Source of the DNA: Fulvivirga maritima
GTDB taxonomy: Bacteria > Bacteroidota > Bacteroidia > Cytophagales > Cyclobacteriaceae
Direction of reading: 5' to 3'
Assembly: GCF_021389955.1 (NCBI RefSeq)
Contig: NZ_CP089980.1
Span: forward strand, 3,095,001 to 3,159,000
Length of the DNA stretch: 64,000 nt
Part shown: piece by piece, positions 43,456 through 54,001 of the stretch
Position numbering within the stretch: the stretch's first letter is position 1
Layout of the letters: every line of letters begins with the position of its first letter
Notes under the pieces: model-generated
The model's database searches: none
Seen by the model: the letters and a program-made list of their open reading frames with translations, nothing else
What the model was told of the DNA's origin: nothing
Made by a program: the position numbers and the translations under genes

Positions 43456-45207
43456 ATGAAATTCTTAAGAAACTTTCTAGCCTCATTTTTAGCGCTGGTG
43501 ATCTTCAGTGTACTGGGTACATTGGTTTTTGTAGGCGTTATTTCGGTTATGTCAGCAGAAGAGACGGTTAAGGTCTCATCAAAAAGTATTCTACATCTTA
43601 AGTTGAATAAGCCTATTTCAGAGGTGGAGTTTGAAAACCCTTTTGGGGAAGTGGGATTTGTGGCCAGTTCGGCTAGCTCAATGGGGCTGGTACAGCTGAA
43701 AGAGGTAATAGCTGATGCTAAAACCAATGAGAATATAGAAGGTATATTTTTAGAAACGCCCATGTTAAATGCGGGTACTGCCACTATAGAAGAAATTAGG
43801 TTAGCTCTGGAAGACTTCAAAACTTCAGGCAAATTTGTGGTGGCATATAACGAATACTATACAGAAGGTGCTTATTACCTTTCTTCAGTGGCTGATAAAA
43901 TATATATGCACCCTGAGGGAGATTTAGAATTTAATGGGTTATCTGCCAATGTTACTTTCTTGAAGGGCTTATTTGATAAGTTGAAAGTGGAACCTCAAAT
44001 TTTTAGAGTAGGGCAATTTAAAAGTGCTGTTGAACCTCTCATGCGAACTGATATGAGTGAGGAGAACAGGCTTCAGCTTACTTCTATGTTAAATAGTGTA
44101 AACAATCATTTAATAGCTAATGTAGCAAATAGCAGAGGCTTGTCAGAAGCTGATGTAAAACAGATGTCAGATGAAATGCTCGCCAGGCAACCTGAAGATG
44201 CCGTGAAATATGGGCTTTTGGATAGCCTCACTTATTATGATGGGGTAATTTCCTTTTTGAAGAAAAAAATAGGCATTGATGCTGATAAGGACCTTTCGCT
44301 AGTGAAATATGAGAAGTATAAAAAGAGTTTTAGTAATTATAAAAGCTCTGATAATGAAGTGGCAGTAATCGTTGCTTCTGGTGAAATTGTGTCAGGAGAA
44401 GGAGATATCAATAATATTGGCTCAAACGCATTTGTTAAAGAAATAAGAAAGGCTCGCGAGGATGATGAGATAAAAGCGGTGGTGCTAAGAATAAATTCTC
44501 CGGGAGGTAGCTTCGTTGCTTCTGATATCATGTGGAGAGAGATTAAATTGACCAGTGAGATGAAGCCTGTTATTGCTTCTATGTCTGATGTAGCGGCTTC
44601 AGGAGGTTATTATATGAGTATGGCTTGCGATACTATTGTAGCTCAGCCTAACACCATAACTGGTTCCATCGGTATTTTTGGAGTGATCTTTAATTTTAAG
44701 GATTTTCTAAATGAAAAATTAGGAATTACTAATGAAGAGGTTAACACCGGAAAATATTCTGGAATGATGACTGTAACCAGACCATTAACCGAAGAGGAAA
44801 GTTCGATAGTACAAGAAGATATCAATAAGGGATATGAAACTTTTGTCACCAAGGCTGCTCAAGGAAGAGGTATGAGTGTTGAGGCTATTAAAGCGGTGGC
44901 CTCCGGCCGTGTGTGGACTGGAGAGCAAGCGAAAACCAATGGCTTGGTCGATGTTCTAGGTGATTTTGATGATGCCATAGAAATAGCGGCTAATGCTGCA
45001 GGGGTTCAGGATGATTACAAAATTAGATATTACCCTAAACAAAGATCTATTTTTGAGGAGTTCTTTAAGGAGCTTGAAGGAGATACTAAATCGGAGGCTA
45101 TAAAGGCTGAACTGGGAGAGTTATATCCTTATTTTGAAATGCTCAAAAAAACTGAGAACTTGAAAGGGGTTCAGGCCAGATTACCATATGAATTGAATCT
45201 AAATTAG
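43456..45207 (+). CDS. sppA: Signal peptide peptidase SppA, long (67 kDa) type
   Basis: This 583-residue membrane-bound serine protease degrades leftover signal peptides. An N-terminal transmembrane helix (8-33) precedes two tandem S49 domains. The N-terminal domain supplies the general-base Lys in RVGQFKSAVEPL (about residue 190). The C-terminal domain has the nucleophile Ser in DVAASGGYYMSMACD (about 381). NSPGGS and GSIGIFGV complete the active site. Length matches E. coli SppA. It is preceded by a 172-bp region with a TATTTTTG element (43323-43330). Confidence 0.96.
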   Translation: MKFLRNFLASFLALVIFSVLGTLVFVGVISVMSAEETVKVSSKSILHLKLNKPISEVEFENPFGEVGFVASSASSMGLVQLKEVIADAKTNENIEGIFLETPMLNAGTATIEEIRLALEDFKTSGKFVVAYNEYYTEGAYYLSSVADKIYMHPEGDLEFNGLSANVTFLKGLFDKLKVEPQIFRVGQFKSAVEPLMRTDMSEENRLQLTSMLNSVNNHLIANVANSRGLSEADVKQMSDEMLARQPEDAVKYGLLDSLTYYDGVISFLKKKIGIDADKDLSLVKYEKYKKSFSNYKSSDNEVAVIVASGEIVSGEGDINNIGSNAFVKEIRKAREDDEIKAVVLRINSPGGSFVASDIMWREIKLTSEMKPVIASMSDVAASGGYYMSMACDTIVAQPNTITGSIGIFGVIFNFKDFLNEKLGITNEEVNTGKYSGMMTVTRPLTEEESSIVQEDINKGYETFVTKAAQGRGMSVEAIKAVASGRVWTGEQAKTNGLVDVLGDFDDAIEIAANAAGVQDDYKIRYYPKQRSIFEEFFKELEGDTKSEAIKAELGELYPYFEMLKKTENLKGVQARLPYELNLN

Positions 45208-45288
45208 TATTCTGATCAAAATTATTAGATAAAGCTAAAGGCCTTTTAATTCTTATGTGCTTACTTTGAGTCTTTAAACTACTACCAA

Positions 45289-46284
45289 ATGACTGAAATA
45301 CGTAACGATTGGACTAGAGAAGAAATTAGTGAAATATATCATTCACCACTGTTAGACTTGATTTATCGTGGAGCTACGGTTCATAGAGAGTATCATGATA
45401 CGGGTGAAGTTCAGGTGTGTACATTGCTTTCTGTGAAGACAGGGGGCTGTCCTGAAGATTGTGCCTATTGTCCTCAGGCTGCGCGTTATCAAACTGATGT
45501 GAAAGTGCATAAGTTGTTGCCTACAGAAGAGGTGTTGCAGAAGGCAAAAGAGGCTAAGGATGCTGGTAGTACCAGATTTTGTATGGGTGCTGCCTGGAGA
45601 GAGGTGAGAGATAATAAAGACTTCGACCGCGTACTTGATATGGTGAAAGGGGTTAATGCTATGGATATGGAGGTTTGCTGTACTTTGGGTATGCTTACTG
45701 AAGATCAGGCTATGAAGCTTAAAGATGCAGGTCTTTATGCCTATAACCATAACCTGGATACTAGTGAAGAGCATTATGAAGAAATAATCTCAACTCGTAG
45801 TTATGATGAGAGATTAGAAACCATAGATAACGTTAGAAAAGCCAAAATATCAGTTTGCTCTGGCGGAATTATAGGAATGGGAGAGGGAGATAAAGATAGA
45901 ATAGGTATGTTACTTACCTTGGCTACTCTGGAGGAACACCCTGAATCTGTTCCTGTAAATGCTTTGGTGCCTGTTGAAGGTACACCTTTGGCTGAGCAAG
46001 CTAGAGTATCTGTTTGGGAGATGATCAGAATGATAGCAACTGCCAGGATTATTATGCCTAAGGCTATGGTGAGATTATCTGCAGGTAGAGTGAAGATGAA
46101 TATGGAAGAGCAGGCTTTATGCTTTATGGCAGGAGCTAACTCTATCTTCGCAGGAGATAAATTATTAACTACACCTAATAATGATGTAGTAGTGGACGAA
46201 GAGATGTTTCAGGTTTTAAACTTAAAGCCTAGAAAAGCCCATAAAGGCGAAGCTACCGTGAAGTTTGAGAAAATACCAGGTTAA
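45289..46284 (+). CDS. bioB: Biotin synthase
   Basis: This 331-residue radical SAM enzyme inserts sulfur into dethiobiotin. The 4Fe-4S cluster motif [10 protein letters not shown] gives Cys54, Cys58 and Cys61. The 2Fe-2S ligands are in [18 protein letters not shown] and [10 protein letters not shown], with Arg in VRLSAGRV. Other bio genes are absent from the window. The product would be needed to biotinylate AccB. The gene ends at a bidirectional terminator shared with typA. Confidence 0.97.
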
Positions 46285-46309
46285 GTTTATTGACCACCAA
46301 AATATTAAA

Positions 46310-46344
46310 CATTAAAAAAGCCCGCAATTCGGGCTTTTTTAATG
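46310..46344. terminator. Bidirectional terminator between bioB and typA
   Basis: CATTAAAAAAGCCCG (46310-46324) pairs perfectly with 46330-46344 around loop CAATT. GC-rich core and U-runs on both strands serve the convergent bioB and typA genes. Confidence 0.95.
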
Positions 46345-46369
46345 TTTATATCGAAAGATAAAGAAAGGA

Positions 46370-48175
46370 TTAATTTTCTTTATTACTCATTTTCTTTCTA
46401 TCACTCTCGTTAAGATAAATCTTTCTCATTCTCATTGATTTAGGAGTAACTTCAAGATATTCATCTTTTTGAATGTATTCTAAAGCTTCTTCTAAAGAGA
46501 ATTTTTTAGCGGGAGCAATTTTTGCGTTGCTGTCAGATCCTGAAGCTCTCATGTTAGTAAGCTTTTTACCTTTCTGTATGTTTACAACAAGGTCATTGTC
46601 TCTTGAGTGCTCACCAATTACTTGGCCCATGTATAGATCTTCACCCGGATCTACGAAGAAAATACCTCTGTCCTGAAGCTTATCAATTGAGTAAGCAGTA
46701 GAAGGACCTGATTCCATAGAAATTAAAGATCCATTGATTCTACCAGGGATCTCACCTTTATAAGGAGCATATTCTTTGAACCTGTGAGTCATGATAGCTT
46801 CTCCAGCAGTAGCTGTTAAGATGTTATTTCTTAAGCCTATGATTCCTCTTGCAGGGATGTCAAACTCAAGGTGTTGTAAGTCACCCTTAGGTTCCATGAT
46901 CTTCATTTCACCTTTTTTAGCGCTAACTAGCTCTATCACTTTTCCAGATGTTTCTTGAGGTACATCTACTACTAAGTGCTCTATAGGTTCATGTTTTACG
47001 CCATCTATTTCTTTAATTAAAACCTGAGGCTGACCTACTTGTAATTCGTAGCCTTCTCTTCTCATTGTTTCAATTAATACAGATAAGTGAAGAATACCTC
47101 TTCCAAATACATTAAATCTGTCTTCTGAAGTAGTGTCTTCTATTCTTAAAGCTAAGTTCTTCTCAGTTTCTTTGTATAAACGATCGCGAAGGTGTCTTGA
47201 AGTCACAAACTTACCTTCTTTACCGAAGAATGGAGAGTTGTTAATAGTAAATAACATACTCATGGTAGGCTCGTCAATAGCAATACGAGGAAGAGGTTGA
47301 GGATTTTCCAGGCTGGTTACTGTATCTCCTAATTCAAAATCTTCAATACCTACTAAAGCACATATTTCACCTGAAGAGGCCTCTGGCACACGCTTTTTGC
47401 CTAATCCTTCAAAAATATGAACCTCTCTAACTTTTTGTCTTTTTACACTACCATCGGCTTTAGTTAAACCTACTGTGTCACCTTCTTTTACAATACCTTG
47501 GTTAATACGACCAATGGCTATTCTTCCTACATAAGATGAGAAGTCAAGTGAAGTAACCTGCATTTGTAGTACACCTTCGTTTTGCGGTGCTGGTGGTATA
47601 AATTCCACTATAGCATCTAAAAGAGGTATAATGTTGTCAGTAGGCTGATTCCAGTCTGTGTTCATCCATCCTTGTTTAGATGAACCATACAAAGTAGGGA
47701 AATCTAGCTGCTCTTCTGTAGCGTCCAGGTTAAACATCAGGTCAAAAACCTGCTCATGAACCTCGTCAGGACGACAGTTTTCTTTATCCACCTTATTTAC
47801 AACCACTATTGGTTTAAGACCTAATGAAAGGGCTTTACCTAGTACGAAGCGTGTTTGTGGCATAGGGCCTTCAAATGCATCAACCAATAGTATTACACCA
47901 TCGGCCATTTTTAAAACCCTTTCTACTTCTCCTCCAAAATCGGCGTGACCAGGAGTGTCTATGATGTTAATCTTTACATCATTGTATCGAACGGAAACGT
48001 TCTTAGACACGATAGTAATGCCTCTTTCTTTTTCTAAGTCCTCGTTATCAAGAATAAGGTCGTCTGACTCTTCATTTTCTCTTAATATTTTTGAGGCATG
48101 GATAATTTTGTCAACCAAGGTAGTTTTACCGTGGTCAACGTGAGCTATAATAGCTACATTTCTAATATTTTGCAT
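46370..48175 (-). CDS. typA: Ribosome-associated GTPase TypA/BipA
   Basis: This 601-residue translational GTPase assists 50S assembly and stress adaptation. G1 [14 protein letters not shown], the switch region ERGITI, G3 [11 protein letters not shown] and G4 NKVDKE are present. Domain II and two EF-G-like alpha/beta domains precede the C-terminal TypA-specific domain ([20 protein letters not shown]). Length matches the family. A -7-like TAGCTTTG occurs on the minus strand at 48193-48200, about 20 bp upstream of the start. Confidence 0.97.
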
Positions 48176-48192
48176 AGACTGAAATTGAGCTG

Positions 48193-48594
48193 CAAAGCTA
48201 ATAATTTAAAAGCAAACAAATGTTATCGAAATTCAATTTTACAAGCCATACATTTATTTGTGTAAATAAGTTTCATGTTTTTGAAGCAAAAGACTATTTA
48301 CGAGGTGTGACAAGAAAATCAAAGATTTGTTTAATTGATTATAAGAAAACTTACTATTGTTACAAAGTGGGTGTGTACTATAAATAACTAAGAGTATATA
48401 ATTAAGTATATACTCGTAGCTTTTACAAGGTAACCTTATGTCGTGGAGAAAATTTTACTTCCCTCGATCTGATCTTTTTTATGATTGTGTTTTCATAACC
48501 AGTTGTTATTCAGTTTTTTTCAAGAATAAGTCTTTTGTTGAAATGATGAACAATAAGCCTTGTGCGCGCTATTCAGGCTTATGTTAGGTTTTTG
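48193..48594. other. Intergenic region between typA and the small-peptide array
   Basis: No gene-like frame was recognised in about 400 bp. It begins with the probable typA -7 element (48193-48200, minus strand). It then holds a perfect 9-bp AT-rich inverted repeat (48392-48415). It ends with an 8-bp stem, ATAAGCCT (48553-48560) against AGGCTTAT (48575-48582), about 13 bp beyond the last peptide stop; that stem may end the peptide transcript although no long U-run follows. Confidence 0.4.
48392..48415. repeat. Perfect 9-bp AT-rich inverted repeat
   Basis: GAGTATATA (48392-48400) and TATATACTC (48407-48415) are reverse complements around ATTAAG. It lies in the otherwise featureless gap between typA and the small-peptide genes and could be a protein-binding dyad or a weak RNA hairpin. 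Confidence 0.45.
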
Positions 48595-48765
48595 TTAAAA
48601 TTGCCCCTGATCTTCCATGGTAAACCCACTCATGGGCTTGGCTAAGGTGTGTTTCTGGCTCTTCTGTTTCGTGTTTTTAGATATATTTTCCCTTTTTACC
48701 GTGATGAAAGAGAAGCTGGCTATGATTGCTAGTGCGAGGGTCGTTATTATAAGTTTAGTTTTCAT
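48595..48765 (-). CDS. Small exported peptide 1 (divergent member of array)
   Basis: This 56-residue frame starts MKTKLIITTLALAIIASFSF, a signal peptide or N-terminal anchor with no lipobox Cys, and continues with a very basic middle (KRENISKNTKQKSQKH) and the ending SGFTMEDQGQF. It shares no long identity with the other four peptides. It does share their upstream sequence immediately before the ATG, orientation, size class, Lys start and terminal Phe. It is the distal gene, 45 bp after peptide 2. Too short for automated calling, it is supported by the array context. Function unknown. Confidence 0.6.
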   Translation of the reverse strand: MKTKLIITTLALAIIASFSFITVKRENISKNTKQKSQKHTLAKPMSGFTMEDQGQF

Positions 48766-48810
48766 GTTCGAGTTCAGTTTATAAGGTTGTGAGTAAGTTG
48801 AGTTCAGTAA

Positions 48811-48957
48811 TCAAAATCCACCAGTTTCGGAGATAGCAGATCCGTCTCCGGATACGTGTCTGGCTTCAGTTTGAGGAGTCACTTCTTCTTCATTGCAAGA
48901 AGAGAATATTGAAGCTACAGGAATGGCTAATAGAGTGATTAAGATTAATTTTTTCAT
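48811..48957 (-). CDS. Small surface lipopeptide 2 of tandem array
   Basis: This 48-residue frame has a lipoprotein signal peptide (MKKLILITLLAIPVASIFSS) with lipobox Cys21. Acidic residues NEEE directly follow the Cys, like the lipoprotein export signal that sends Bacteroidota lipoproteins to the cell surface. The mature part is 28 residues and ends RHVSGDGSAISETGGF. It differs from copies 3 and 4 by one residue (Ile17 for Met) and uses a TGA stop. The ATG is preceded by the conserved array spacer. Function unknown. Confidence 0.75.
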   Translation of the reverse strand: MKKLILITLLAIPVASIFSSCNEEEVTPQTEARHVSGDGSAISETGGF

Positions 48958-48994
48958 GTTCGAGTTCAGTTTATAAGTAAGTTGAGTTTAGTAA

Positions 48995-49141
48995 TTAAAA
49001 TCCACCAGTTTCGGAGATGGCAGATCCGTCTCCGGATACGTGTCTTGCTTCAGTTTGAGGAGTCACTTCTTCTTCATTGCAAGAAGAGAACATTGAAGCT
49101 ACAGGAATGGCTAATAGAGTGATTAAGATTAATTTTTTCAT
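48995..49141 (-). CDS. Small surface lipopeptide 3 of tandem array
   Basis: This 48-residue lipopeptide precursor has the same plan as copy 2, with lipobox MFSSC (Cys21) and acidic NEEE after the Cys. The C-terminus is ARHVSGDGSAISETGGF and the stop TAA. Its protein is identical to copy 4 and nearly all nucleotide differences are silent, pointing to very recent duplication. It starts exactly 184 bp from copies 2 and 4. Confidence 0.75.
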   Translation of the reverse strand: MKKLILITLLAIPVASMFSSCNEEEVTPQTEARHVSGDGSAISETGGF

Positions 49142-49178
49142 GTTCGAGTTCAGTTTATAAGTAAGTTGAGTTTAGTAA

Positions 49179-49325
49179 TTAAAATCCACCAGTTTCGGAG
49201 ATGGCAGATCCGTCTCCGGATACGTGTCTTGCTTCAGTTTGAGGAGTCACTTCTTCTTCGTTGCAAGAAGAGAACATTGAAGCTACAGGAATGGCTAATA
49301 GAGTGATTAAGATTAATTTTTTCAT
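49179..49325 (-). CDS. Small surface lipopeptide 4 of tandem array
   Basis: This 48-residue copy is identical in protein to copy 3, with a silent change in the Asn codon after the lipid Cys (AAC for AAT). The lipobox Cys21, acidic +2 to +4 positions and C-terminal SGDGSAISETGGF are intact. The neighbours on both sides are 37-bp spacers of the same sequence. Confidence 0.75.
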   Translation of the reverse strand: MKKLILITLLAIPVASMFSSCNEEEVTPQTEARHVSGDGSAISETGGF

Positions 49326-49362
49326 GTTCGAGTTCAGTTTATAAGTAAGTTGAGTTCAGTAA

Positions 49363-49509
49363 TTAAAATCCACCAGTTTCGGAGATAGCAGATCCGTCTC
49401 CGGATTCGTGTCTGGACAGGCTTGTTGGTTTTACCTCCTCTTCGGAGCAGGCATAAGTGATAATTGATAATAAAATCAGTGTTAAAATTGTAAATAGTTT
49501 GCTTTTCAT
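49363..49509 (-). CDS. Small surface lipopeptide 5 of tandem array (promoter-proximal, diverged signal peptide)
   Basis: This 48-residue precursor is the first in transcription order. The signal peptide is different (MKSKLFTILTLILLSIITYA, lipobox Cys21, then SEEE), and the middle reads VKPTSLSRHE. From there the end SGDGSAISETGGF is identical to copies 2-4, including at the nucleotide level through the stop codon and downstream spacer. The intact lipobox and acidic export-like signal despite changed sequence indicate selection for a surface lipopeptide. It is divergent from the histidine kinase across 205 bp. Confidence 0.75.
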   Translation of the reverse strand: MKSKLFTILTLILLSIITYACSEEEVKPTSLSRHESGDGSAISETGGF

Positions 49510-49714
49510 ATTATAATTGATTTTAGATTTAGACTTCTTTTGATTTTTGTTTTAATTTATTGCTGTCACTATTTAAAAGCCTTATTTATGGGTAAAATAT
49601 TACATGTATAATTACTTATCCTTACTTGGTTGATGTTTGTTTTAGTGTGAAGGAGAGACAAAAATGATAGAATGAATTGCTAAAAAATAATCAACTGTTA
49701 ACTAAAACTTACTT

Positions 49715-51796
49715 GTGTGTTTCTTGAATAAGTTATTTATAAAAACCCTTGTCTTAATTTTTGCTTTTTTCTGCAGTTCAGTAGTTTATGGGGAGAGTGA
49801 TGTTGATTCTTTGAAGACGCAATTGAAAAAAGTCAATTATAAGAGTAAAGCAGAAGTTGCTAGGCAACTTTTTGTAGCCTATAGAAATATAGATCTTGAT
49901 TCTGCTTTGATTTATGCTCGGGTGTCGAGTGAATATGCATCATATGTAGGCGATAGTTTGACAATTTCTCGAGCGGAATTTTGTATTGGGTGGGTTTATG
50001 AGCGTAAAGGATATTATCAGGATGCTGTTCAGCACTATCATAAGTCTTTGCAAATAGCTAATGAAAATGGCTTTGATGATCGCAAAAAGTACATTTTAAA
50101 CAATCTCGGTAATGCTAATTACTTCTTTGGTAACTATGATGATGCTCTTAGGTATCATTTAGAATCACTTAAGCTTAGAGAACGTGAAGGGAATTTGGTA
50201 GAAGTGGCTATTTCTTGTAATAACATCGGTCTGGTTTATTATAAGATTAGAGATTTTGATAAGGCGATTAATTTTTTTGATCGTGCTTTGAAGATAAAGA
50301 AGGAGATAGGTGATGATACAGATTTGGAAAGTATCCTTATCAATTTAGGTTTATGTTATTCTGAGTTAAATAGATATAAAGAGGCCTTAGAGTTTTTTGA
50401 TAGGATTTTGGCTCTTTGTGAGGTAGGTTGTGAAGATCGGATGAAAATAGAAGCCTACAATGGAGCAGGAATAGCGTATTATTCGTTAGGAGAGATTAAG
50501 AAGGCTAAGATGTATTTTGAGGCTTCAAATAAATTGGCTATTGATGATGATTTTCAAATGTATCATGTCATTAATGATCACTTCTTAGCTAAAGTTCTTT
50601 TAGCGGAGCAAAATACTGAAGGGGCTATATCTTACTTGATGAAAAGTTTAAGAGGGGCAGAGAATTTAAGATATAGGACATGGATAAGAGATAATTATCA
50701 ATTGTTAGCAGAAATAAATGCTTTGCGTAAAAAGTATGAAGAAGCCTACTATTATCAAAGGAGATATGATTCATTAAATAGTCAGGTGTTAAATGAAGAA
50801 GTAATCCAAAATCTGGCTAAGATTCAGATTGAATATCAGGAGCGTGAGAATATGGAGACTATTAGTATGCAGCAGTCTCAAATATCACGAAGAACTACCT
50901 TGCTACTGCTTTCGGGCATTATTATTTTTCTGGCGTTGGTTATCCTGGTTATTCTGTATAGAAATAATTTCCATAGGCGTAAGGTGAATGAAAAATTGTC
51001 TGAGGCTAATGAAACTATTGAAAGGCAAAATCATGAGCTGACAGATATAAATGTGAAGCTGGAAGAAAAGGTGCGAGACAGAACTAAAGAGTTAAAAGAT
51101 TCTAATGCGGCACTTTTAAAGTCTAACCATGAGCTGGATAATTTTATCTATAAAACTTCTCATGATATAAGGGGGCCGCTGGCAACTTTACAAGGTATTT
51201 GTAATGTGGCTTTAATTGATATAAAAGATGCAAAGGCGGTTGATTATTTTAAGAAGCTCGGTAGTACAGCTAAAAAACTCAATGAGATTCTTTCCAAACT
51301 GTTGATTATAAATCAGATCAACAATTCATTAATTACAGAAGAAAGGGTTGATTTTAATGACCTGATCGAAAATGTAATAGTTAAACAGAAGAAGAATCAA
51401 TCGGGCAAGAAGGTTAAAATAAGCAAAGAGATAGATGATCATCTTTACTTTAAAAGTGATGTAGAATTGCTTAAGATAATTTTAAATAACCTCATAGGTA
51501 ATGCCTTTAAGTTCTATAATACCTCCAGTCGGGTAGATTCATTTGTACATATTACTGTGAAGAAGTTAAAGGCCGACGATGTAGAAATACGAGTGATTGA
51601 TAATGGAATAGGTATTGAGGATAAGGCTTCTATTAAAATTTTTGAGATTTTCTCTAAAGCTTCAGAAATGGGAGATTCAGCGGGCTTAGGGCTCTATCTG
51701 GTAAAATTGGCTGTAGAAAAATTAGAAGGTGATATTTCTTTAAAAAGAACAGAAGAAGGATTTACTTGCTTTACCGTCAGATTTTCGAATTCTTAA
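49715..51796 (+). CDS. TPR-domain sensor histidine kinase (periplasmic TPRs, no receiver domain)
   Basis: This 693-residue sensor has a signal peptide (1-26, ending SSVVYG), then about seven tetratricopeptide repeats (40-370; for example NNLGNANYFFGNYDDALRYH). One transmembrane helix follows (about 393-413, LLLLSGIIIFLALVILVILY), then a coiled coil and the kinase core. The phosphoacceptor is His483 in KTSHDIRGPL, the N-box NNLIGNAFKFY is near 591, and the G-boxes are DNGIGIE and GLGLYLVK. The TPRs are therefore predicted to be periplasmic and to bind a peptide or protein ligand. No ATG fits; the GTG at 49715 is the likely start, with TTG at 49724 as alternative. No response regulator gene lies nearby. 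Confidence 0.93.
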   Translation: MCFLNKLFIKTLVLIFAFFCSSVVYGESDVDSLKTQLKKVNYKSKAEVARQLFVAYRNIDLDSALIYARVSSEYASYVGDSLTISRAEFCIGWVYERKGYYQDAVQHYHKSLQIANENGFDDRKKYILNNLGNANYFFGNYDDALRYHLESLKLREREGNLVEVAISCNNIGLVYYKIRDFDKAINFFDRALKIKKEIGDDTDLESILINLGLCYSELNRYKEALEFFDRILALCEVGCEDRMKIEAYNGAGIAYYSLGEIKKAKMYFEASNKLAIDDDFQMYHVINDHFLAKVLLAEQNTEGAISYLMKSLRGAENLRYRTWIRDNYQLLAEINALRKKYEEAYYYQRRYDSLNSQVLNEEVIQNLAKIQIEYQERENMETISMQQSQISRRTTLLLLSGIIIFLALVILVILYRNNFHRRKVNEKLSEANETIERQNHELTDINVKLEEKVRDRTKELKDSNAALLKSNHELDNFIYKTSHDIRGPLATLQGICNVALIDIKDAKAVDYFKKLGSTAKKLNEILSKLLIINQINNSLITEERVDFNDLIENVIVKQKKNQSGKKVKISKEIDDHLYFKSDVELLKIILNNLIGNAFKFYNTSSRVDSFVHITVKKLKADDVEIRVIDNGIGIEDKASIKIFEIFSKASEMGDSAGLGLYLVKLAVEKLEGDISLKRTEEGFTCFTVRFSNS

Positions 51797-51881
51797 GATT
51801 TTGATTTTCCATATATCAAAATAGAATGCGGATGTTTCCGCCTCTTTCCTGCTTGTTAGTTAATAAACAGCTAAGAAATTT

Positions 51882-51889
51882 TATCTTTG
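51882..51889 (+). promoter_or_regulatory. Probable -7 promoter element of metG
   Basis: TATCTTTG matches TAnnTTTG and lies 18 bp before the metG start. The -33 position carries TTA rather than TTG, so the call is moderate. Confidence 0.4.
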
Positions 51890-51907
51890 CAGCATTAATT
51901 CTGATAA

Positions 51908-54001
51908 ATGATGCAAGATACTGATACGAACTTTAAAAGACATACTATTACCGCCGCATTACCTTATGCTAATGGCCCTGTACATATTGGGCATTTGGCA
52001 GGGGTGTACGTACCGGCTGATATTTATGTAAGATACCTGAAAAGTAAAAAGGAAGATGTAGTTTTTGTCTGCGGATCTGATGAGCATGGTGTTGCTATTA
52101 CTTTAAGAGCAAAAAAAGAAGGAGTAACGCCAAAAGAGGTTGTAGATAAATACCATACCCTGATTAAAGATTCCTTTGAGCAATTTGGGATCGACTTTGA
52201 TATTTACTCCAGAACATCATCCGAAGTGCATAAGCAGACTTCAATGGATATGTTTAAAAAGCTCTATGACATGGGAGTGTTTGAGGAGCAAACTTCTAAG
52301 CAATACTATGATGAAAAGAGTAAGCTGTTTTTGGCTGATCGATATATCATAGGTACTTGCCCTAAATGTGGATACGATCAGGCCTATGGAGATCAGTGCG
52401 AAAAGTGTGGATCATCTCTAAGTCCTGCAGAATTAATTAATCCTAAGTCAGCTTTAAGTGGAGATGAACCTGTGCTTAAAGAAACCAAGCACTGGTATTT
52501 TCCTATGGATAAGTACGAGCCTTGGTTGAAGGAGTGGATACTGGAAGATCATAAAGAGTGGAAGACTAATGTGTATGGCCAGTGTAAGTCATGGTTAGAT
52601 GGTGGTTTAGCGCCCAGGGCGATGACCAGAGATCTGGACTGGGGAGTGCCTGTGCCTGTAGAAGGAGCTGAAGGCAAGGTGCTATACGTTTGGTTTGATG
52701 CACCTATCGGCTATATTTCTGCTACTAAAGAGTGGGCTGAGCAAAATGGTAAAAACTGGGAGCCATATTGGAAGGATAAAGACTCAAGATTACTTCACTT
52801 TATTGGTAAGGATAATATTGTGTTTCACTGTATCATCTTCCCAAGCATATTGCATGTAGATGGTGATTATATATTGCCAGATAATGTTCCTGCTAATGAG
52901 TTCTTAAATCTTGAAGGAAATAAAATTAGTACATCTAAAAACTGGGCGGTTTGGCTGCATGAGTTTTTAGAAGATTTGCCTGGTAAAGAAGATGTACTTA
53001 GGTATGTGTTATGTGCTAATGCTCCTGAAACAAAGGATAATGACTTTACCTGGAAAGACTTCCAGACTCGTAATAACAGTGAGCTGGTAGCTATATTCGG
53101 CAATTTTATTAATAGAGCAGTAGTGCTTACTAATAAGTATTATGAAGGCGAAATTCCTGAAAAAGGAGAGTTGTTTGATATAGACAAGGAAACCATTGAG
53201 AAGGTAAAGGCTGCTCCTCAGAAAATAGCTAATGCGCTAGATGCATTTAAATTTAGAGAAGCAATGTCTGAGTTTATAGATTTAGCCAGAACAGGAAATA
53301 AATACCTGGCTGATACTGAACCTTGGAAGTTGATAAAGACCAACCCTAACAGAGTGAAGACCATTATGAATATAGGTCTTCAGATCGCCGCTAATCTGGC
53401 GATTGTAGGGGAGCCGTTCTTACCTAAAACTATCAATAAATTAAATGGCATTTTAAACTTTTCAGGAAAGCTGTGGGCCGATGCCGGATCTGTTGATTTG
53501 CTGCCTGATGGTCATAAAATAGGAGAGGCTGAATTATTGTTTGAGAAAATTGAAGATGACGTAGTGCAAAAGCAGATGGATAAACTAGAGGCAACTAAAA
53601 AAACTAATGAGCAGGAAGTAAAAGCTGCTGTAGCTAAAGAACAAGAGGCTGCTCCGGCAGAATCTAATGTAAAGGCTGAGATCAATTTTGATGACTTTAT
53701 GAAAATTGATATCAGAGTAGGGACTATTCTTGAAGCTGAAAAAATGCCAAAATCTAAAAAGCTATTGAAGATGTTGGTAGATACAGGGATTGACAAGAGG
53801 ACCATTTTAAGTGGTATTGCTGAGCATTATTCACCCGAAGAGGTGATAGGTCAGCAGGTGTCTGTTTTAGTGAATTTGGCCCCTAGAAAAATGATGGGAG
53901 TAGAATCTCAGGGAATGATATTGATGGCTGAAGATACTGATGGTACATTAAGATTTGTGCAGCCTTCAGAAAAGGTGAATCCTGGATCAGGAATAAGTTA
54001 A
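51908..54001 (+). CDS. metG: Methionyl-tRNA synthetase
   Basis: This 697-residue class I synthetase charges tRNA-Met. The HIGH motif is in [13 protein letters not shown] and KMSKS appears as KISTSK in [13 protein letters not shown] four-Cys zinc knuckle ([18 protein letters not shown], residues about 155-172) is in the connective peptide. An anticodon-binding helical domain follows, then an Ala/Glu/Lys linker and a C-terminal tRNA-binding EMAPII/Trbp111-like domain ([20 protein letters not shown], residues 597-697). Two ATGs (51908, 51911) are possible starts. A good terminator follows. Confidence 0.98.

Follow-up and report, generated by a model that had tools for sequence, protein, structure and literature searches.

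In the ComQXPA quorum-sensing system of Bacillus, as described in excerpts of PMC4008528, a peptide gene stands beside the gene of a histidine kinase with a variable N-terminal sensor and a conserved cytoplasmic half, and the system occurs in polymorphic types; there, ComQ attaches an isoprenyl group to ComX, and the sensor of ComP lies in the membrane with many helices. Receptors of the RRNPP type work inside the cell and belong to Firmicutes (PMC10075063 and PMC9765709, both in part). FimS of Porphyromonas gingivalis is a periplasmic TPR sensor histidine kinase whose signal is described as unknown and for which a polypeptide ligand has been suggested (in the portion of PMC11053733 available). 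The locus described here supplies candidate ligands for a TPR sensor kinase of Bacteroidota.

The locus lies in a window of 64,000 nucleotides of the Fulvivirga maritima genome (contig NZ_CP089980.1, positions 3,095,001 to 3,159,000), which is the whole stretch of DNA that was analysed. As in ComQXPA, the peptide and histidine kinase genes are neighbours in loci of the window type, and here too peptide and sensor are variable while the kinase half is conserved. Unlike ComQXPA, neither ComQ nor ComA lies beside it (the neighbours being sppA, bioB, bipA and metG), and the place of ComX and ComP is taken by a predicted lipoprotein with a second peptide and by a TPR ectodomain, in a Gram-negative organism. 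The locus would work like ComX/ComP, yet it is not a member of that system. With RRNPP (Rap-Phr) it shares a putative TPR peptide receptor and an adjacent propeptide (TM ~0.57-0.66 to the predicted model), whereas the TPRs would, going by the topology, lie outside the membrane and on a histidine kinase. A TPR sensor on a histidine kinase is also what it has in common with FimS, but the window kinase scores 106 bits against a cut-off of 600 for FimS (NF053520), and the available part of PMC11053733 mentions no peptide array for FimS. MgrB (47 aa) and MzrA, small membrane modulators of kinases, would be comparable as small proteins with an effect on such an enzyme, although the excerpts at hand do not mention an array or a polymorphic ligand-sensor cassette for these. 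A comparable system was not found among the papers listed in searches of the open-licence PMC literature.

On the minus strand, five frames of 56, 48, 48, 48 and 48 codons follow each other head-to-tail at 48595-49509, as an initial annotation of this DNA had claimed. Equally correct was its description of four of them as having a signal peptide, a Cys at position 21, an acidic run (EEE) directly after it and a common C-terminal tail, which is SGDGSAISETGGF. These are the copies of peptide A, predicted lipopeptides of 48 aa: copy 1 (48811-48957), copy 2 (48995-49141), copy 3 (49179-49325; protein identical to copy 2) and copy 4 (49363-49509). They repeat with a spacing of 184 bp, the 262-nt copies having 97% and 95% identity to the reference copy. 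The signal peptide of copy 4 is only 20-25% identical to those of the other copies, while its last ten residues, and with them the tail SGDGSAISETGGF, are unchanged. The fifth frame, peptide B (48595-48765, minus strand, 56 aa), begins with a hydrophobic stretch, lacks a lipobox and ends in the tail PMSGFTMEDQGQF; it does belong to the array, as first described, and is now seen as the member of a second conserved family (E 5e-17 on the B profile, the window sequence itself being among the profile's 29 rows). This family and the cassette polymorphism described below go beyond the initial annotation. An inverted repeat downstream of peptide B (48383-48424; 21 nt, 81% complementary, no spacer) is a possible terminator of the array.

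The end pattern of the A tail (ISETGGF followed by a stop, 1 mismatch allowed) occurs at 4 places in the 6.39-Mb genome, all of them in this array, and 0 times in the control. Searches of three peptides (A copies 2 and 4, and B) with Pfam and NCBIfam gave no model at cut-off. Among 136 distinct A peptides, 131 carry a pair of neighbouring acidic residues within positions +2 to +6 after the Cys, and the succession of a lipobox Cys and polar and acidic residues in A peptides is that of the Bacteroidota surface-export signal, which the acidic run resembles (as described in part of PMC5080379). Peptide A therefore probably faces outward from the cell; peptide B may be anchored or cleaved.

The array is separated from the kinase by a divergent intergenic region of 205 bp (49510-49714), exactly as first reported, in which promoter scans were uninformative (one gave 5 sites versus 5.3 expected, another 47 versus 35.5). 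The kinase itself (49715-51796, plus strand, 693 aa, GTG start) contains TPR, HisKA and HATPase_c domains according to Pfam, HisKA scoring 26.5 bits, just below its cut-off of 26.9. Its topology, read from the sequence, starts with a signal sequence, continues with the TPRs and a single membrane segment and ends with the kinase, by which the TPRs are predicted to be periplasmic. The TPR ectodomain (residues 27-392; 49793-50890) forms the variable half, followed by a transmembrane segment placed by eye (approximately residues 396-418; 50900-50968) and by the constant half with the HisKA and HATPase core (residues 466-690; 51110-51784), whose motif residues are invariant in the 19 sequences compared. 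From an alignment of the window and 70 of 78 kinase loci (omitting 5 short ectodomains and 3 loci that failed the length or X filter), AlphaFold2 predicts a TPR superhelix for the ectodomain (mean pLDDT 91.5) with about eight TPR helix pairs, so that the domain composition initially given for the kinase holds but the count of seven repeats does not. In a Foldseek search, the best matches of this model were LGN structures, mostly peptide-bound, with Rap and Rap-Phr lower. Asparagines 103, 144 and 184 of the ectodomain, which fall in three consecutive repeats, are invariant or almost invariant. Asparagines of that kind hold the peptide backbone in other TPR proteins. The cysteine pair C235/C239 of the ectodomain is invariant in 19 sequences; a disulfide is possible and would fit the periplasm. 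Beside the window kinase, no response regulator was found.

With peptide A as bait, 44 of the 295 genomes of the family were matched at E 0.01 or better. Arrays lying far from any TPR kinase had been named initially as evidence against a connection, and this is not the situation: a divergent TPR kinase adjoins the peptide in 28 of the 29 peptide-bait loci from other genomes (L009-L037), the match in the remaining one (L036) being the start of a 315-aa protein. The reverse search, in which the kinase was the bait and the contig scan was blind to the peptides, kept 78 loci from Fulvivirga, Ohtaekwangia, Chryseolinea, Dawidia, Chryseosolibacter, Parachryseolinea, Pseudochryseolinea, Chryseotalea and uncultured relatives. 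Of the 71 that have upstream sequence (i.e. where 300 bp or more of the locus precede the match), 68 carry A and 59 carry both A and B. In a separate scan of loci by score thresholds, the B-like frames visible in L258 and L195 are not counted. Loci without A are L241, where an A N-terminus lies within a longer open frame, L248, with only ~330 bp upstream, and L256, with a distant kinase. The B profile has a strong match (E 1e-7 or better) in 60 of the 295 genomes, as counted by eye. When the A profile was run on 341 genomes of the order, the strong full-length matches among those listed were confined to the family of the window, and the other listed matches were mostly N-termini of longer frames; related peptides occur also in L242, L243, L245 and L258, some of which are labelled Cytophagales or Bacteroidetes only.

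In most of 40 mapped loci the neighbours follow the order sppA, bioB, peptides, kinase, metG, and Fulvivirga has bipA as an additional gene among them; the order of sppA, bioB, kinase and metG (43456-54001 of the window) is kept across genera, SppA being a signal peptide peptidase. Genomes with two modules (L192, L194, L208, L252 and G284) have a separate A for each kinase and, where seen, a separate B, while in L191 the first module shows A only. Several loci differ in their layout. In L072, L074, L078, L079 and L081 (all Fulvivirga), a second TPR kinase stands between the window-type kinase and metG, and peptides of its own were not found there; in L258 (2784-3641, uncultured Cytophagales), A and B-like frames alternate in tandem (B-A-B-A), again with similar tails; and in L169 (G184) the kinase spans two overlapping frames, which points to either a disrupted gene or a misassembly.

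Copies within an array often have very different signal peptides and the same tail. For these comparisons, only complete frames with a Met start were used, peptides containing X were dropped and modules with identical peptide sets were merged, which left 94 modules with A and 81 with A and B. In 72 of 83 copy pairs (one pair being entered twice, as the G044 and L257 peptides are identical), the last ten codons hold 229 synonymous and 0 nonsynonymous differences, and all 78 nonsynonymous tail differences fall in the other 11 pairs, from five modules (G136, G084, G182, G163 and G177). Since tail changes between copies are mostly synonymous and seldom nonsynonymous, the frames of the array are, on this sequence evidence, real genes, and the tails of array copies are kept by selection on the peptide. 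Between modules whose signal peptides are 50-80% identical, the tails are on average 25% identical (175 pairs). Gene conversion was rejected as the chief explanation for the identity of tails, because synonymous sites in the tails differ; the window copies have just one synonymous tail difference among them, and recent duplication or conversion may be behind the identical tails of this particular array.

The tails of A and B from one genome also resemble each other, as in ERI/ERI (G065), KDDPGF/KDDTTF (G204) and SDRL/ETRL (L223), or in GPY/QAY of G156 versus GPF/QAF of G177. Permuting B within kinase clusters lowered the similarity of A and B tails in the 81 modules (p 0.00025 at both thresholds), and four control comparisons of other regions in the same modules were flat (p 0.15-0.96). 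An exception is G289, where the A tail (SPIKE) and the B tail (DSDQWK) are unlike. Co-variation with columns of the TPR groove was weak (p 0.48 for identity of the last 8 residues of A, and p 0.015 also for the signal-peptide control of B). Mantel tests of tail against ectodomain distance were significant, but so were those with signal-peptide distances, for which reason they were set aside as evidence for tail specificity. Both signals would arise if the block were exchanged in its entirety.

Among relatives, the peptides and the TPR ectodomain form a polymorphic cassette on a constant kinase half. G197 and G074 are identical in the kinase (225/225) and linker (73/73) and have SppA, BioB and MetG at 100%, 99% and 99% identity, while their ectodomains share 242 of 366 residues (66%), their A tails differ and their B tails differ at two of the last nine residues. 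At the DNA level, identity is 55-78% over ~2.1 kb covering B, A and the ectodomain, 86% in the comparison interval at the cassette edge and mostly 93-99% outside. These two kinases, with identical catalytic halves and different sensor heads and peptides, provide a natural control. A similar drop in identity was seen for G152/G065 and L252/L194, a weaker one for G163/G136, and for G223/G287 the downstream edge alone is visible. Pairs of the same type (G163/G182 and G156/G177) have no drop, G243/G275 dips only beside the array, and in G152/G287 the pattern is reversed, the cassette being more similar than most of the flanking DNA. As several of the genomes are metagenomic (one genome per species was sampled, many from metagenomes, G197, G152, G065 and G223 among them), a chimeric contig is possible for single pairs. 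The pair of the window and F. sediminis shows the break too and consists of a one-contig genome and a named strain: the kinase is identical at 199 of 225 residues, the linker at 63 of 73 and MetG at 97%, compared to 137 of 366 for the ectodomain, with the edge of the break near residue 360 (the F. sediminis contig ends in the array, so that the comparison excludes the far edge and B).

In the ectodomain tree G152 and G287 are joined at 100/100, whereas the kinase tree joins G152 with G065 (95/92.6) and G223 with G287 (94/94, not starred). AU tests on pairs that had been noticed before testing rejected G152 with G065 (p 6e-50) and G223 with G287 (p 2e-4) for the ectodomain, and G152 with G287 (p 1.4e-4) for the kinase. 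The tails of G152 and G287 are GVQGDxGKN with GGFVTEDKF, while in G065, G194, G122 and G223 both A and B end in E-R/K-I/V; G210 is an exception, as its ectodomain falls with those of G152 and G287 but its tails are different. The two trees conflict, and the tails mostly follow the ectodomain. In a wider set of 109 pairs with a kinase identity of at least 75%, which are not independent of each other, 78 have an ectodomain identity at least 20 points lower, with tail identities of 0.32 (A) and 0.30 (B) versus 0.75 and 0.92 in the other 31. Tail identity correlates with that of the ectodomain (rho 0.54 for A and 0.79 for B) more than with that of the kinase (0.18 and 0.23). Signal peptides track the ectodomain too (rho 0.60), which is expected if the block moves as one. 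For the 25 pairs with a kinase identity of at least 85%, ectodomain identity is bimodal, being either 44-67% or 77-98%.

Because ligand and sensor change together on a constant kinase and types are shared across lineages, the locus is best read as a polymorphic ligand-receptor recognition system resembling ComX/ComP, with the tails as ligands of the TPR domain of the kinase, a reading that is held with somewhat better than even confidence. The tails of A or B, or fragments of them, would bind the periplasmic TPR superhelix and set the activity of the kinase. Tails and ectodomain would then match each other in specificity and be passed on, or exchanged, together as a cassette, in which the variable sensor reads the self or kin type while the transmembrane segment and kinase half stay constant, and the match of tail to groove would be the target of selection. 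With A facing outward and the receptor in the periplasm, either a released fragment or B could serve as the periplasmic ligand. Physical binding, lipidation, surface export, the periplasmic place of the TPRs, release of a fragment, the dosage by copy number suggested in the initial annotation, the direction of the effect and action between cells are what we infer here, and neighbouring genes may be exchanged as a unit even when they have no functional connection. The ligand-receptor and self- or kin-sensing function proposed in the initial annotation nevertheless gains from the selection on tails, the A-B tail resemblance and the cassette polymorphism. If the signal passes between cells, it would be an independent, Gram-negative form of polymorphic peptide recognition of the ComX/ComP kind. 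The wider claim, i.e. that Bacteroidota possess a Gram-negative peptide self-recognition based on outer-membrane lipopeptides and a non-lipidated peptide, whose related tails are specific to the lineage, and on a swappable periplasmic TPR reader attached to a constant histidine kinase, with types that travel between lineages as a single cassette and a diversity kept by selection, is tentative and falls a little short of an even chance.

A peptide that faces outward and a receptor in the periplasm would be reconciled if the kinase were a cell-autonomous sensor of the envelope, with A as a sentinel lipoprotein that leaves the periplasm while surface export works and whose tail engages the TPR kinase when it fails, B with its similar tail being a tethered competitor or set point. 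NlpE-CpxA and RcsF are envelope sensors that work in this way. Such a role agrees with the resemblance of the acidic run in 131 of 136 A peptides to the surface export signal (PMC5080379, in part), but it leaves unexplained why peptides and ectodomain should diverge jointly while the kinase stays constant, and why types are shared across lineages; sensing of surface stress, which the initial annotation had also considered, is likewise a poor explanation of the polymorphism, and the sentinel role is considered unlikely, if worth keeping in mind. More improbable still is a feedback within one cell, with the kinase controlling A and B, which in turn inhibit or tune it. In size and kinase linkage they do resemble MgrB (47 aa, an inhibitor of PhoQ, according to parts of PMC2789325 and PMC8404706), and the polymorphism could stem from recombination together with the drift of two closely linked partners, joint drift being possible for adjacent genes. 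However, drift does not readily split ectodomain identities into two groups among pairs with equal kinase identity, and it poorly fits types that are shared across lineages.

The peptides might also be no ligands at all but antimicrobials, precursors of RiPPs or a decoration of the surface that happens to be encoded beside the kinase, which would agree with signal peptides tracking the ectodomain just as tails do. A chryseobasin-related RiPP model gave a sub-threshold match as well (15.4 bits versus a cut-off of 40), and a RiPP origin was set aside on this NCBIfam score, which is far below the cut-off. The conserved named neighbours are sppA, bioB, bipA and metG (modifying enzymes being judged from these alone), and the resemblance of A and B tails would be left unexplained; this possibility is considered very remote compared to the recognition of tails by the TPR domain.

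The genome of F. maritima contains 57 matches to the window kinase at E 1e-10. In 29 other kinase loci of this genome, many of which are cut inside the kinase so that the upstream part is not always covered, the best scores were 8.1 bits on the A profile and 13.8 on the B profile, where complete peptides score at least 33 (A) and 21 (B). A lipopeptide of 63 aa with the motif CNEESVNP and another tail, scoring 29.8 bits on the A profile, was found elsewhere in the same genome (L292, 696-3560; C1 5424695-5427559). It lies 71 bp upstream of a TPR kinase of the HisKA_2 type on the same strand, which is followed by a LytTR response regulator, and this is perhaps a second pair of a lipopeptide and a TPR kinase.
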